Of a DNA stretch of 64,000 bases, positions 3,954 to 41,167 are shown piece by piece. Every line of letters begins with the position of its first letter. The first letter of the stretch is position 1. The notes beneath the pieces are model-generated. The model searched no databases, was not told the DNA's origin, and saw only the letters and a program-made list of their open reading frames with translations. Origin of the DNA: Halorubrum depositum (GTDB lineage: Archaea > Halobacteriota > Halobacteria > Halobacteriales > Haloferacaceae); contig NZ_VCNM01000001.1 in the NCBI RefSeq assembly GCF_007671725.1, positions 1,054,001 to 1,118,000 on the forward strand, read 5' to 3'. The translations under genes and the position numbers were made by a program.

Positions 3954-4048
3954 GATCCGGGCGGAGACGGCCGAACGGTCGGCGCCGACGGCACCCCCGC
4001 TTCGAAATCCTTTTACAGCTTTCGAGGGGATATACCCGTAACTGAACC

Positions 4049-4357
4049 ATGGACGTCGATATCATCTCCGAGGAGGAGAACCCGATGTTGCACCGCACGG
4101 ACATCCGATTCGAGACGACTCACGAGGAGGCGACGCCCTCCCGCCTGTCGGTCCGCGACTCGCTCGCGGCCAAGCTGGACAAGGCCTCCGAGGAGGTCGT
4201 CGTCCACGAGTTGGACACGAAGTTCGGCATGCGCAAGACGGTCGGCTACGCGAAGGTGTACGACACCGCCGAGGACGCGCTCGACGTCGAACAGGAGCAC
4301 ATGCTCGAACGCAACAAGATCGGCGACGAGGCCGAGGCGGACGCCGAAGAGGCCTGA
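4049..4357 (+). CDS. rps24e: Ribosomal protein eS24
   Basis: 102 residues. Features ENPMLHRTDIRFETTHEEATPSR and EVVVHELDTKFGMRKTVGYAKVYD are diagnostic for eS24. An A-T element CCTTTTACAG about 35 nt upstream of the ATG is a plausible TATA box. In the haloarchaeal genomes I recall, a ~45-codon rps27ae gene follows rps24e. Here only 11 nt separate rps24e from kae1, so eS27/S31 is not at this position. Confidence 0.95.
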   Translation: MDVDIISEEENPMLHRTDIRFETTHEEATPSRLSVRDSLAAKLDKASEEVVVHELDTKFGMRKTVGYAKVYDTAEDALDVEQEHMLERNKIGDEAEADAEEA

Positions 4358-4368
4358 CGCCGCGCCGG

Positions 4369-6069
4369 ATGCGCGTTCTCGGCATCGAGGGGACCGCGTG
4401 GTGCGCGAGCGCCGCGCTGTACGACGCCGAGACGGACTCCGTTCTCATCGAATCGAACCCGTACGAGCCGGACAGCGGCGGCATTCACCCGCGCGAGGCC
4501 GCCGAACACATGTCCGAGGCGATCCCCGAGGTCGTCGACGCGGTCCTGACGGCGGCCGAGGACGAGTACGGCCCGGACGCGATCGACGCGGTCGCCTTCT
4601 CGAAGGGACCGGGGCTCGGCCCCTGTCTCCGCACCGTCGGCACGGCCGCGCGGGCGCTCGCGGGGACGCTCGACGTCCCCCTCGTCGGCGTCAACCACAT
4701 GGTGGCGCACCTGGAGATCGGTCGCCACCGGTCCGGCTTCGAGAACCCGGTGTGTCTGAACGCCTCCGGGGCGAACGCGCACCTGCTCGGCTACCACGAC
4801 GGCCGCTACCGCGTGCTCGGCGAGACGATGGACGCCGGCGTCGGCAACGCCATCGACAAGTTCACGCGCCACGTCGGCTGGGATCACCCCGGGGGGCCGA
4901 AGGTGGAGGCCGCGGCCGCGGAGGCGGCCGCCGAGCGCGACCCGGACGCCGAGCTGGTGGACCTGCCGTACGTCGTCAAGGGGATGGACTTCTCCTTCTC
5001 CGGCATCAGCTCCGCCGCCAACGACGCGTCCGACGACGGGGTCCCCGTCGAGGAGATCTGCTTCTCGCTGCAGGAGCACGTGTTCGCGATGCTGACGGAG
5101 GTGTCGGAGCGGGCGCTCTCGCTGACCGGCGCCGACGAGCTCGTCCTCGGCGGCGGCGTCGCGCAGAACGACCGGCTCCGCGAGATGCTGGGGACGATGT
5201 GCGCGGCCCGCGGGGCCGACTTCCACGCGCCCGAGCCGCGGTTCCTCCGCGACAACGCGGGGATGATCGCCGTGCTGGGCGCGAAGATGGCCGCGGCCGG
5301 CGACACCGTGTCGATCGCCGACTCCGCGATCGACCCGAACTTCCGGCCGGACCAGGTTCCCGTGACGTGGCGCGACGGCGACGAGTCGGTCGCCCGCGGG
5401 CGGGGAGACCGGGAGCGGGAGGACGGAGGGTGGGATAGCGACGGCGACGCCGGCCGACGCGGCGCGGAGGCGACCGTGGAGATCGCGGCGGTCGGGGAGG
5501 GCGAGGACGCCGCGACGGGTGAGACGCGCCGCGTGATCAAGCGCCGGGTGCCGAAGCGGTACCGCCACCCCGGGTTGGACAGCGCGCTCAGGCGTGACCG
5601 GACCGTCGCCGAGGCGCGGCTGACGAGCGAGGCGCGGCGGGCCGGCGTCCCGACTCCCCTGGTGTACGACGTCGACGTGCCGGCGGCGACGCTGACGCTC
5701 CAGCACGTCGGGGACTGCGACCTCGCGGCCGAACTCAACGAGCGGTGGACGACCGCCGTCGGCCGGCACCTCGCGCGGCTCCACAAGGCGGGGATCGTCC
5801 ACGGCGACCCGACGACGCGAAACGTCCGGGTCGAACGCCGAGAGGAGGGCGACGCGCGGGCGACCCTCATCGATTTCGGGCTCGCCTACCACACCGGTCA
5901 CGTCGAGGACCACGCGATGGACCTCCACGTGTTCGAGGGGTCCGTCCGCGCGACGGCGACCGACCCGGACCCGCTGATCGAAGCGTTCGAGACGGGGTAC
6001 GCGGCGGTCGGCGACGGCGACGTCCTCGACCGGCTGCGGGCGGTCGAGGGTCGCGGGCGGTACCGGTAG
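4369..6069 (+). CDS. KEOPS fusion protein Kae1-Bud32 (tRNA t6A synthesis)
   Basis: 566 residues. Residues 1 to about 330 are Kae1, the threonylcarbamoyl transferase that makes t6A37 on ANN-decoding tRNAs. Metal ligands H110 and H114 are in NHMVAH, with a second glycine-rich site at GGGVAQNDRLREML. Residues from about 390 form the atypical kinase Bud32: IVHGDPTTRNV (H478-D480) and LIDFGLAY. The fusion is normal in haloarchaea. The linker (about residues 345-385) is a low-complexity run rich in Gly, Arg and Asp with no recognisable fold. Start ATG at 4369, 11 nt after rps24e. Confidence 0.96.
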   Translation: MRVLGIEGTAWCASAALYDAETDSVLIESNPYEPDSGGIHPREAAEHMSEAIPEVVDAVLTAAEDEYGPDAIDAVAFSKGPGLGPCLRTVGTAARALAGTLDVPLVGVNHMVAHLEIGRHRSGFENPVCLNASGANAHLLGYHDGRYRVLGETMDAGVGNAIDKFTRHVGWDHPGGPKVEAAAAEAAAERDPDAELVDLPYVVKGMDFSFSGISSAANDASDDGVPVEEICFSLQEHVFAMLTEVSERALSLTGADELVLGGGVAQNDRLREMLGTMCAARGADFHAPEPRFLRDNAGMIAVLGAKMAAAGDTVSIADSAIDPNFRPDQVPVTWRDGDESVARGRGDREREDGGWDSDGDAGRRGAEATVEIAAVGEGEDAATGETRRVIKRRVPKRYRHPGLDSALRRDRTVAEARLTSEARRAGVPTPLVYDVDVPAATLTLQHVGDCDLAAELNERWTTAVGRHLARLHKAGIVHGDPTTRNVRVERREEGDARATLIDFGLAYHTGHVEDHAMDLHVFEGSVRATATDPDPLIEAFETGYAAVGDGDVLDRLRAVEGRGRYR

Positions 6070-37422: not shown

Positions 37423-38547
37423 TCAGGCCGCGTCGTCCAGAACGGCCGACCGCATCTCGGGGATCGACGCCGTGCTCTTGACCGCGGTGCCGCGGTAGTG
37501 GGCGCGGCTGGCCTCGTGGCCGGCCCCCCGCAGTCGGTCGACGAACTCGTCCATGCCGATGGCGGGCTCGCCCCACTCTTTGTACAGCCGGTGCTGGTCG
37601 TAATGCGTGGGGGTGTCGAGCTCGCGGGCGACGGTCCCGAGCAGCTTGCGGGCGCGCTTCGCCTCGCCCATGTCGTCGGTGACGCGACGGCGGACGGCGC
37701 GGGCGAAGTCAGCGTCGGCGACCGGCCCCAGCCACAGCGGCCCGGCCGTGAGCACGCGGTCGCTCCCGCAGACCGGACAGGCCTCGACCGGGTCGGCGAT
37801 CAGCCCGCGGGTCGGCTCGCGCCAGAGGCAGTCCTCGCAGTTGTCGACGTACCCCAGCTCGTCGATACAGGCGTCGGCCGCCTGCGCACCCGACTCCAGT
37901 TCGAGGTAGGTCCGCGCGTAGTGGCGAGAGACGTGCGAGACGATCGGGCGGGCCGCCTTGTCGTAGCGCGCCGCGGTGCGCACCAGCGCGGAGATCAGCG
38001 TCCGGAGCCCCATCTCCGGGTGGTAGTCGGTGTTGCGCGGGACGGCGCCGTACTTCCGGATCCCGCTGTTGAGGTGCGCGCCGCAGAGGGGGGCGGTGTC
38101 GGTCGCCGTGACGCAGACGAGATTGCGCGCGTTCGCGAGCGCGGCGTCCGCGAAGGGGATCGGCGTCCCGTACGGGTCGAGGTCGACGACGTCGAAGACG
38201 TCCTCGTACAACAGCGCGTTGACGTTGCGGTGGACCGTCTCGCCGTCGAGGTCGTTGGCGGCGAGGTTCTCGGCCGCGAGGTCGACGGCGTCGGGATCGA
38301 CGTCGGCGCAGGTGACGTCGTACCCCTCGGCGGCGGCGCGGACCCCGCGGATCCCGGAGGCCGCCATCGCGTCGAGGTACGAGGCCGCGCGCGGCTCGCG
38401 CTCGCGGTACGCGCGCAGCACCGCGACCGTGACGTCGCGGTTCAGCTCCTGGGTCGGGTTGAAGAAGACCCCGCCGCCGGTGCCCTCGCTGGCCCCGTCG
38501 CGGGCCTCGGGGACGGAGACGGTGAGACCGCCCTCCTCGATGTCCAT
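37423..38547 (-). CDS. trm1: tRNA (guanine26-N2)-dimethyltransferase
   Basis: 374 residues from ATG 38547. SAM-binding segment [20 protein letters not shown], catalytic [28 protein letters not shown], and a C-terminal zinc module with CEDCLWREP and CPVCGSD. Methylates G26 of tRNAs. The start at 38547 gives [17 protein letters not shown], matching archaeal Trm1; the upstream 8 in-frame codons are probably non-coding. Divergent from the repeat-protein gene. Confidence 0.95.
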
Positions 38548-38765
38548 GCCTCGGTTTCGGCCATCCGGCACAAAAGGACCGCGCTCCGCCGGTGACCGCC
38601 CCCGACGCGCCGTTCGCGTCCGGTCGGAACGTGGCGACCATGAAGCGGGGCTTTTAGCCCGTCACCGCGGATATGTGGACACACACTGATGTACGCTACG
38701 TTCAACCGAGACCGGGACGGCCGTCCGACGCGCGACCGCGACGCGACCGCGGAGGCGGATCGGCG

Positions 38766-39662
38766 ATGGTGAGTCCGGCCCGCGTCGACGCGCTCACCGA
38801 CCTCGCGTACGGCGCGCTGATCGTCTTATCGATCGTCCTCATCGCGACGCTGAACGTGAACGACGTCGGCGTCGCGTTCGGGATCGGGGTGTTCGCCTCC
38901 TACGTGGTCCACGTCGTCTGGAAGATGGCCCGGTTCGACCCCGACTGGATGACGCGGGAGGTCGCCGACCAGGTCGGCAAGGAGGTCGAGAAGAGCGTGG
39001 GCGACACCGTCAACAAGGAAGTTGAGAAGACCGTCGGCGACACGGTGAACAAGGAAGTTGAGAAGACCGTCGGCGAAACCGTCAGCAAGGAGGTCGAGAA
39101 GAGCGTCGGCGAGACCGTCAGCAAGGAAGTCGAGAAGACGGTCGGCGAGAAAGTCGAGGAGACCGTCGAGAAGACCGTCGGCGACACCGTCAACAAGGAG
39201 GTCAGCGAGGTCGCCGACGACGTCAGCGACACCGTCAGCGAGGAGGTGTCGGGGAAGGTCGAGGAGACCGTCGGCGAGACCGTCGAGAAGACCGTCGAGG
39301 AGACGGTGGGTGAGACGGTCGAGAAGACGGTCGGCGAGAAGGTCGAGGAGACCGTCGAGAAAACCGTCGAAGAGACCGTCGGCGAGAAAGTCGAGGAAAC
39401 AGTAGGCGAGACGGTCGAGAAGACGGTCGGCGAGAAGGTCGAGGAGACCGTCGAGGAGACCGTCGAGAAAACCGTCGAAGAGACCGTCGAAGAGACCGTC
39501 GGCGAGAAGGTCGAGGAAACGGTGGGCGAGAAGGTCGAGGAGACCGTCGAGAAAACCGTCGAAGAGACCGTCGGCGAGAAGGTCGAGGAAACGGTGGGCG
39601 AGAAGGTCGAGGAGTCGGACGAAGACGAAGACGAAGACGAAGACCAGCGGAGCGATTCGTAA
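38766..39662 (+). CDS. Two-helix membrane protein with 219-residue valine-tetrad tail
   Basis: 298 residues from ATG 38766, with GGAGG at 38751-38755 as a ribosome site. Two hydrophobic helices (about 12-30 and 35-53; TDLAYGALIVLSIVLIATLN, GVAFGIGVFASYVVHVVWKM) precede residues 66-284, which divide into 54 four-residue units each starting with Val (VEKT, VGEK, VEET, VGET, VNKE and variants). One three-residue step, VSE at 146-148, is the only break. Half the units carry Lys, which is rare in a halophile proteome; acidity increases toward the end. The tail closes with an ED-repeat. No family recognised; see findings. Confidence 0.85.
   Translation: MVSPARVDALTDLAYGALIVLSIVLIATLNVNDVGVAFGIGVFASYVVHVVWKMARFDPDWMTREVADQVGKEVEKSVGDTVNKEVEKTVGDTVNKEVEKTVGETVSKEVEKSVGETVSKEVEKTVGEKVEETVEKTVGDTVNKEVSEVADDVSDTVSEEVSGKVEETVGETVEKTVEETVGETVEKTVGEKVEETVEKTVEETVGEKVEETVGETVEKTVGEKVEETVEETVEKTVEETVEETVGEKVEETVGEKVEETVEKTVEETVGEKVEETVGEKVEESDEDEDEDEDQRSDS
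38961..39617 (+). repeat. 12-bp-period minisatellite encoding valine tetrads
   Basis: The DNA repeats with a 12-nt period (forms of GTCGAGGAGACC and GTCGGCGAGAAG). Late units are nearly identical, and the 72-nt block at 39498-39569 recurs for a further 48 nt at 39570-39617 with one codon changed at the end, indicating recent expansion. Early units are more diverged, with synonymous changes. Confidence 0.85.
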
Positions 39663-39784
39663 CGGTCGGTGGCGCGGCGGGCCGGTTCCGACGACCGGCG
39701 GTTGTTGAATCCGTAGTTTCGACCCGGTGATTTTGAGCATCCCGAAGGCCTAAACCGGAACGGCCGTTACCAGATGACGGACGC

Positions 39785-41167
39785 ATGGGCCAGGACGATC
39801 TCGATCGGAGTCTCGGGTTGTATCCGACGATGATGATCAGCATGGGCGCGATGATCGGCAGCGGGATCTTCGTGCTGCCGGCACTGGGGTACAAGAAGGC
39901 CGGGCCGGCTGTGATCCTCGCGTACGTCCTGGCCGCGCTCGTCGTGTTACCGGCCGCGCTGTCGAAGGCCGAGATGGCGACGGCGATGCCGGAATCCGGG
40001 GGGACGTACCTCTACATCGACAGGGCGCTCGGGCCGTTGTTCGGGACGATCGCCGGGATCGGGGCGTGGTTCTCGCTGGTGTTCAAAAGCTCGTTCGCGC
40101 TCGTCGGACTCGGCGCGTACCTGCTGTTGTTCGCGCCGCTCTCGCAGGGGGCGGTGGTGTACGTCGCGCTGGCGCTCGCGGCCTTCGTCGTCGCCCTGAA
40201 CGTCTCGGGGACGAAGATGAGCGGGCAGATACAGGCGGTCATCGTCACGCTGGTCGTCGCGGGGCTACTCGCGTACGTCGTCAACGCGGGATTCGTCGCC
40301 GACACGGCGCGGTACGCGCCCTTCAGGACGCACGGGAACGTCGGCGTCGTCACGGCCGCCGCCTTCGTCTTCGTCTCGTACGCGGGCGTCACGAAGATCG
40401 CCAGCGTCGCCGAGGAGGTGAAAGACCCCGGGCGGAACCTCCCGCGCGCGATGCTCGGCTCCATGGCGATCATGACGCTCCTGTACATCGGGGTGGTCGG
40501 CGCGATCATCGGGCTGAGTGACCCGGACGTGCTAACGACCGGCGGTCCGGGCGGGACGGCGTCGCTCACGCCGATGGCGGACGGCGCTGGCGCGCTCCTC
40601 GGCGGCGCCGGAGTGCTGTTCATCTCCGTGGTCGCCGTCGTCGCGCTCACGAGCATGGCGAACGCCGGCGTGCTCTCCTCCTCGCGGTTCCCGCTCGCGA
40701 TGAGCCGCGACGACCTCCTACCGCCCGCGCTGCGAACGATCGACGAGCGGTTCAAGACCCCGCGGAACGCCGTGCTGCTCACCGGAATCGTGCTGATGCT
40801 GCTCATCGCGTTCGTGCCCGTGATCGAACTGGCGAAGCTGGCGAGCGCGTTCCAGATCCTCGTCTTCTCCTTCGAGAACATGGCGCTGGTCGCGTTCCGC
40901 GTGGCGGACCTCCCCTCCTACGAGCCGGAGTTCACCGCTCCCGGCTACCCGTTCGTCCAAGTGTTCGGCTTTCTCGCCGGCATCGCGCTGCTCACGCAGA
41001 TGGGAACGGTTCCGATCCTCGGAGCCGTCGCCATAATCGCGGGAAGCGCGCTCGTCTACCTCGCGTACGGGCGGTCCAGGACGGACCGGACCGGAGCGAT
41101 CGGGACGATCCTCCGGGCTCGTCGCGACGAGGAAGACGACGGGGTCGCCTCGACGAAACCGGAGTGA
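39785..41167 (+). CDS. APC-superfamily amino-acid permease
   Basis: 460 residues, about 12 transmembrane helices. TM1 motif MMISMGAMIGSGIFVLPALG and TM2 ALSKAEMATAMPESGGTYLY are characteristic. The TM6-region FVSYAGVTKIASVAEEVKDP is typical of cation-coupled amino-acid importers. No C-terminal UspA domain is fused, but a separate UspA gene follows on the other strand. Substrate unknown. Confidence 0.9.
   Translation: MGQDDLDRSLGLYPTMMISMGAMIGSGIFVLPALGYKKAGPAVILAYVLAALVVLPAALSKAEMATAMPESGGTYLYIDRALGPLFGTIAGIGAWFSLVFKSSFALVGLGAYLLLFAPLSQGAVVYVALALAAFVVALNVSGTKMSGQIQAVIVTLVVAGLLAYVVNAGFVADTARYAPFRTHGNVGVVTAAAFVFVSYAGVTKIASVAEEVKDPGRNLPRAMLGSMAIMTLLYIGVVGAIIGLSDPDVLTTGGPGGTASLTPMADGAGALLGGAGVLFISVVAVVALTSMANAGVLSSSRFPLAMSRDDLLPPALRTIDERFKTPRNAVLLTGIVLMLLIAFVPVIELAKLASAFQILVFSFENMALVAFRVADLPSYEPEFTAPGYPFVQVFGFLAGIALLTQMGTVPILGAVAIIAGSALVYLAYGRSRTDRTGAIGTILRARRDEEDDGVASTKPE

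Follow-up and report, generated by a model that had tools for sequence, protein, structure and literature searches.

The 64,000-nucleotide stretch of Halorubrum depositum DNA analysed here (hereafter the window) contains a gene for a membrane protein that is probably a hitherto undescribed accessory to haloarchaeal anion transporters of the PiT family (PF01384), with a long and probably helical tail in the cytoplasm. Three lines of genomic evidence speak for the proposed PiT partnership: the two genes are linked, they co-occur across genomes, and a second head family shows the same pairing. Judged by its conservation, the open reading frame is a real, selected gene, because the start site, the head and the rule of the tail recur across the order (Table 1).

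Table 1. Features of the valine-tetrad gene and its neighbours in the window
Feature	Positions	Strand	Basis or remarks
298-aa gene, candidate PiT-associated valine-tetrad membrane protein	38766..39662	+	Relatives share the MVSPARVD start and the head-plus-tail layout
Head (residues 1-65), with two membrane helices and the motif AFGxGVxxSYxxHVxWKMxRFDPxWMT	38766..38960	+	Alignments; AF2
Valine-tetrad tail, residues 66-284	38961..39617	+	Val-Val step of 4 in 53/54; unit composition V / E,G / E,K / T
Phase-shift element KEVSEVADDVSDTVSEEVSGKV with the sole 3-residue step (Val146-Val149)	39195..39260	+	Other genera also have V-x-x-V-x-x-x-V variants
Acidic C-terminal end DEDEDEDEDQRSDS, residues 285-298	39618..39659	+	Relatives have acidic ends of varied sequence
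Upstream divergent neighbour, which we take to be a Trm1-like tRNA methyltransferase	37423..38571	-	Neighbour within genus only
Downstream neighbour, amino-acid permease (AA_permease_2, 7e-44)	39785..41167	+	Neighbour within genus only
Antisense frame, 304 aa, open across the repeat	38826..39740	-	Looks like the shadow of the GC-rich tail

Protein architecture

The first-pass annotation of this DNA had described two membrane helices followed by a strict four-residue valine period, and both features hold. AF2 places the head helices at residues 4-28 and 31-57 with a pLDDT of about 80, and the motif of the head is near-invariant in alignments of relatives. The tail holds 55 valines; 53 of the steps between them span four residues and the remaining step spans three, against a mean of 5.7 and a maximum of 16 four-residue steps in composition-preserving shuffles (n = 20,000). 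Lysine was said to occur in half of the units, which is correct (27/55), but the departure from the acidic halophile norm read into it was not borne out, as the tail is strongly acidic, with a net charge of -44 over 219 residues and a pI of 4.2.

Basic residues are found at the N terminus and directly past the second helix, and no signal peptide is apparent. Because basic residues flank the helices (positive-inside rule) and a signal peptide is apparently absent, both termini are most likely cytoplasmic, and the tail with them. The cell-surface fibre proposed earlier is thus unlikely.

Distribution and conservation of the family

A search with the head (residues 1-67) found a relative in 50 of 52 Halorubrum genomes and in 125 of 170 genomes of the family, and a profile of 16 sequences extended this to 255 of 392 genomes of the order, in 71 of 95 genera, with named relatives in Natrialbaceae, Haloarculaceae and Halobacterium. 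Relatives beyond the order were not found: in a draw across the whole phylum, every match fell inside the same order. Searches of viral contigs, and of solved structures for a relative of the head, likewise returned none, and no description of this protein family was found in the open-access literature. The earlier statement that no family is recognised was right, since Pfam and NCBIfam matches of the whole protein stay below curated cut-offs and the head alone gives nothing significant. The DUF445 profile (PF04286) scored 31.9 bits (cut-off 33.8), on the tail only and with the head unmatched, and is probably compositional; SseC, Gp5_trimer_C, EcsC and GvpQ also scored below their curated cut-offs, on tail composition only, and all were set aside.

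Nearly all relatives carry a valine-tetrad tail, of variable length (about 50 to 290 residues). In more than sixty relatives from the genus and family, 2,446 of about 2,660 V/I/L steps are exactly four. Hydrophobic residues occupy offsets 2, 6, 10, 14 and 18 past WMT in 143 of about 180 sequences, and the phase of the tail relative to the head is fixed.

Association with PiT transporter genes

Gene neighbourhoods were compared at 40 loci (L183-L222) from other genera and families, chosen for taxonomic spread. The neighbour that recurs across loci is a 392-aa protein of the PiT family of phosphate/sulfate transporters (PF01384; PHO4 match 6.8e-41). A PiT gene directly adjoins the head gene in 25 of the 40 loci, with one further locus in which a Usp gene lies between and one with a PiT fragment, and about 0.1 adjacent loci in 40 would be expected by chance. 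It lies immediately downstream on the same strand in 18 loci, within 2 nt of the stop in 11 of those. Junctions between the head gene and the PiT gene read TGATG or ATGA, with the stop and start overlapping in several families, and such an overlap is the usual sign of translational coupling. Within Natrialbaceae the PiT gene is mostly divergent, and the other side often carries a second PiT gene and a Usp gene; in some members (L142, L158, L169) the head gene is present twice, on either side of PiT and Usp gene clusters. On RefSeq plasmids of Halobaculum, Halocatena and Natrinema, our protein is annotated as "hypothetical protein" and its neighbour as "inorganic phosphate transporter". The pair is present on the megaplasmids NZ_CP090372, NZ_CP096020 and NZ_CP082248, and is therefore able to move between replicons.

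An adjacent PiT gene is absent in 13-15 of the 40 spread loci, and throughout Halorubrum the gene is unlinked to PiT. The window's genome retains a matching PiT gene (74% identical) at C1:652092-653252, a long way from the valine-tetrad gene; the two have come apart in Halorubrum. The Trm1-like protein, the amino-acid permease and UspA, which neighbour the gene in Halorubrum, were considered as partners and dropped, as their linkage ends at the genus boundary.

The matching PiT type was present in 118 of 122 family genomes with a head, compared with 6 of 45 without one (Fisher 4e-27), a figure inflated by shared ancestry and obtained with a PiT-type threshold set post hoc. Six genomes thus hold a matching PiT and no head.

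The third line comes from a weak match in one genome (G138), which led to a second, divergent head family present in 36 of 382 genomes and homologous to the first by hhalign (95.6%, E 1.1e-8). Its tails are also built of tetrads, with E/Q/A/R as filler in place of T/K/G. Of 30 distinct loci of this second family, 24 have a divergent PiT gene alongside; in 22 of these PiT comes first, on the same strand, so that gene order is mostly reversed relative to the first family.

Structure of the tail and alternative readings

A real if lesser possibility is that the partnership is genuine and the tail is an intrinsically disordered acidic brush, in which valine spacing serves only solubility or even spacing, without any ordered helix. 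Val, Thr and Gly are poor helix formers, and AF2, run with 44 and with 23 sequences, gave no confident tail structure, which together make disorder possible; the AlphaFold check that the first-pass annotation had proposed thus resolved the head helices and left the tail with pLDDT mostly below 50. The mean helix cost of the tail, 0.53 kcal/mol per residue, is worse than that of a leucine zipper (0.38), and this cost and the large variation in tail length also fit a brush. However, disorder does not require the exact four-residue phase that is kept across the order and in two families with differing filler. A canonical 3-4-3-4 heptad run, found in 58 of 175 relatives, points to helix in those segments.

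It is also conceivable, though quite unlikely, that we are dealing with a free-standing structural protein (a membrane-tethered cytoplasmic fibre, spacer or scaffold) whose PiT neighbourhood reflects incidental operon history. Such a protein would agree with the long, low-complexity, strictly periodic tail and with the loss of linkage in Halorubrum, but it leaves unexplained why PiT adjacency recurs in many families and again, in mostly reversed order, in the second head family, or why head and matching PiT co-occur as they do. An isolated fibre or spacer and a cell-surface filament, the forms envisaged before, are less likely because the gene of this order-wide family normally neighbours a PiT transporter gene.

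Returning to the accessory protein with a probably helical tail, its geometry had been described as unlike both the 3.5-residue period of coiled coils and the 3.67-residue period of 11-mer helices, and this was confirmed, the period of the window tail being 3.97-4.0. Among 174 tails, the Fourier period has a median of 3.97 and exceeds 3.9 in 83%. The longest uninterrupted tetrad run of relatives has a median of 23 steps. Three-residue steps occur within conserved elements (VSEVADDV, VEDVQTQV, VDEVADKV, VEAVDERV), and some relatives mix them into the tetrads, reaching periods down to about 3.84 or ending in heptad- or hendecad-like segments. Hydrophobic residues at four-residue steps with such interruptions are a feature shared with right-handed coiled coils (hendecad 11/3, pentadecad 15/4, YadA stalk 19/5), and a regular right-handed coiled coil would be one way to read them. 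For coiled coils, however, the expected upper limit of the period is about 3.9, the most extreme known case is 3.8 (YadA), and 4.0 is outside the accessible range (PMC4786415). The window tail lies beyond the range of hydrophobic periods by which coiled coils are recognised (about 3.33-3.9; heptad, hendecad, pentadecad, 19/5). Since their period exceeds the published limit, the tetrad arrays are unlikely to form a continuous coiled coil, and with the high periods and long unbroken runs of most relatives we find a regular right-handed coiled coil very doubtful.

A long, low-complexity repeat of E, K, T and V is also found in the 11-residue amphipathic repeats of LEA, apolipoprotein and alpha-synuclein-like proteins; unlike these, the tail has a period of 4 instead of 11/3, and its valines would run round a helix instead of along one face. 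Tail homology to LEA, apolipoprotein-like or YtxH-like families with 11-residue periods, which had been named as evidence against the earlier description, was looked for, and neither an 11-residue period nor a profile above cut-off was found. A beta filament with octads like those of T4 gp5/VgrG, in which valine and the charged third residue would fall on one face, was set aside.

The DNA of the tail contains tandem 24/36-bp repeats. Across 2,346 pooled tetrads of relatives, the third base of the valine codon is C in 80%, G in 13%, T in 5% and A in 2%; the units were anchored on valine, which fixes bases 1 and 2 by construction, so the evidence lies in the variation of base 3 and in the unbroken spacing. 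In the window tail, 31 of 53 12-mers are distinct. Recent duplication of DNA therefore does not by itself account for the pattern. Varying third bases and mostly differing units, together with exact spacing, argue that selection on the protein maintains the valine rule despite slippage-prone repeat DNA. That the tail is an unselected by-product of minisatellite slippage in GC-rich DNA is highly improbable: the tandem repeats, the widely varying length and the repeat of one relative (L053, genome G156), which passes into another frame (KLSKIPSKGPSTTPSK...) as a slippage indel or an assembly error would cause, are set against exact spacing amid synonymous change, the same rule written in different codons in the second family, and the fact that no long-tailed relatives with unphased tails were seen.

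Proposed mechanism and comparison with PitR

In the accessory-protein reading, the head would sit beside the transporter with both its N and C ends inside, and the tail would extend into the cytoplasm as a long acidic rod, helical for the most part. On an alpha helix, a step of exactly four would shift valine by about 40 degrees per unit, so that all directions would be visited over about 36 residues. The rod would be weakly sticky all round and not along one stripe. This would fit a role in which tails of differing length cluster transporters multivalently, or regulate them, better than it would fit a single discrete coiled coil.

In bacteria, the accessory regulator PitR (DUF47) works together with PiT (PMC13170248). 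Hardly any PitR/DUF47 (PF01865) was found in the family studied here, where 5 of 40 genomes gave weak matches, and Pfam scans of the window protein gave no PF01865 (PhoU_div) match. Like PitR, the window protein is encoded by a gene that is associated with PiT in most families of the order, the window's own genus excepted; unlike the PhoU-like PitR, it has two membrane helices and a tetrad tail and does not match PitR in sequence. By analogy, it may work like PitR, but it is not a PitR/DUF47 member. A bolder version of this proposal, which we consider improbable but worth stating, is that the family is a new class of PiT subunit whose tail is a stiff helix with hydrophobic residues truly spaced at a period of 4.0. 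Such a rod, sticky on all sides and outside the geometry known for coiled coils, would cluster transporters or gate them, and the family would take the place of PitR in haloarchaea.

Transported anion and biological implications

The anion carried may be phosphate or sulfate. At two loci without a head gene, one a Haloferacaceae PiT (L236) and one a matching PiT (L238), the PiT gene is flanked, around positions 4000-5300, by genes whose sequences resemble O-acetylhomoserine sulfhydrylase and homoserine acetyltransferase. Because these PiT genes sit among sulfhydrylase-like genes, sulfate is a possible substrate, and the context suggests that some haloarchaeal PiT proteins carry it. In the window's own genome, one PiT gene (L234, 4359-7029) is found beside a TauE/SafE-like transporter and a rhodanese-like protein, which also points to sulfur.

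For haloarchaeal biology, the analysis would give a hypothetical protein that lacks annotation and spans the order a testable role as a transporter partner, and it suggests a way for haloarchaeal PiT transporters to do without the PitR that usually regulates them. The tails also offer a natural, densely sampled series of sequences whose hydrophobic period is 4.0, a value that coiled-coil theory has held to be inaccessible.
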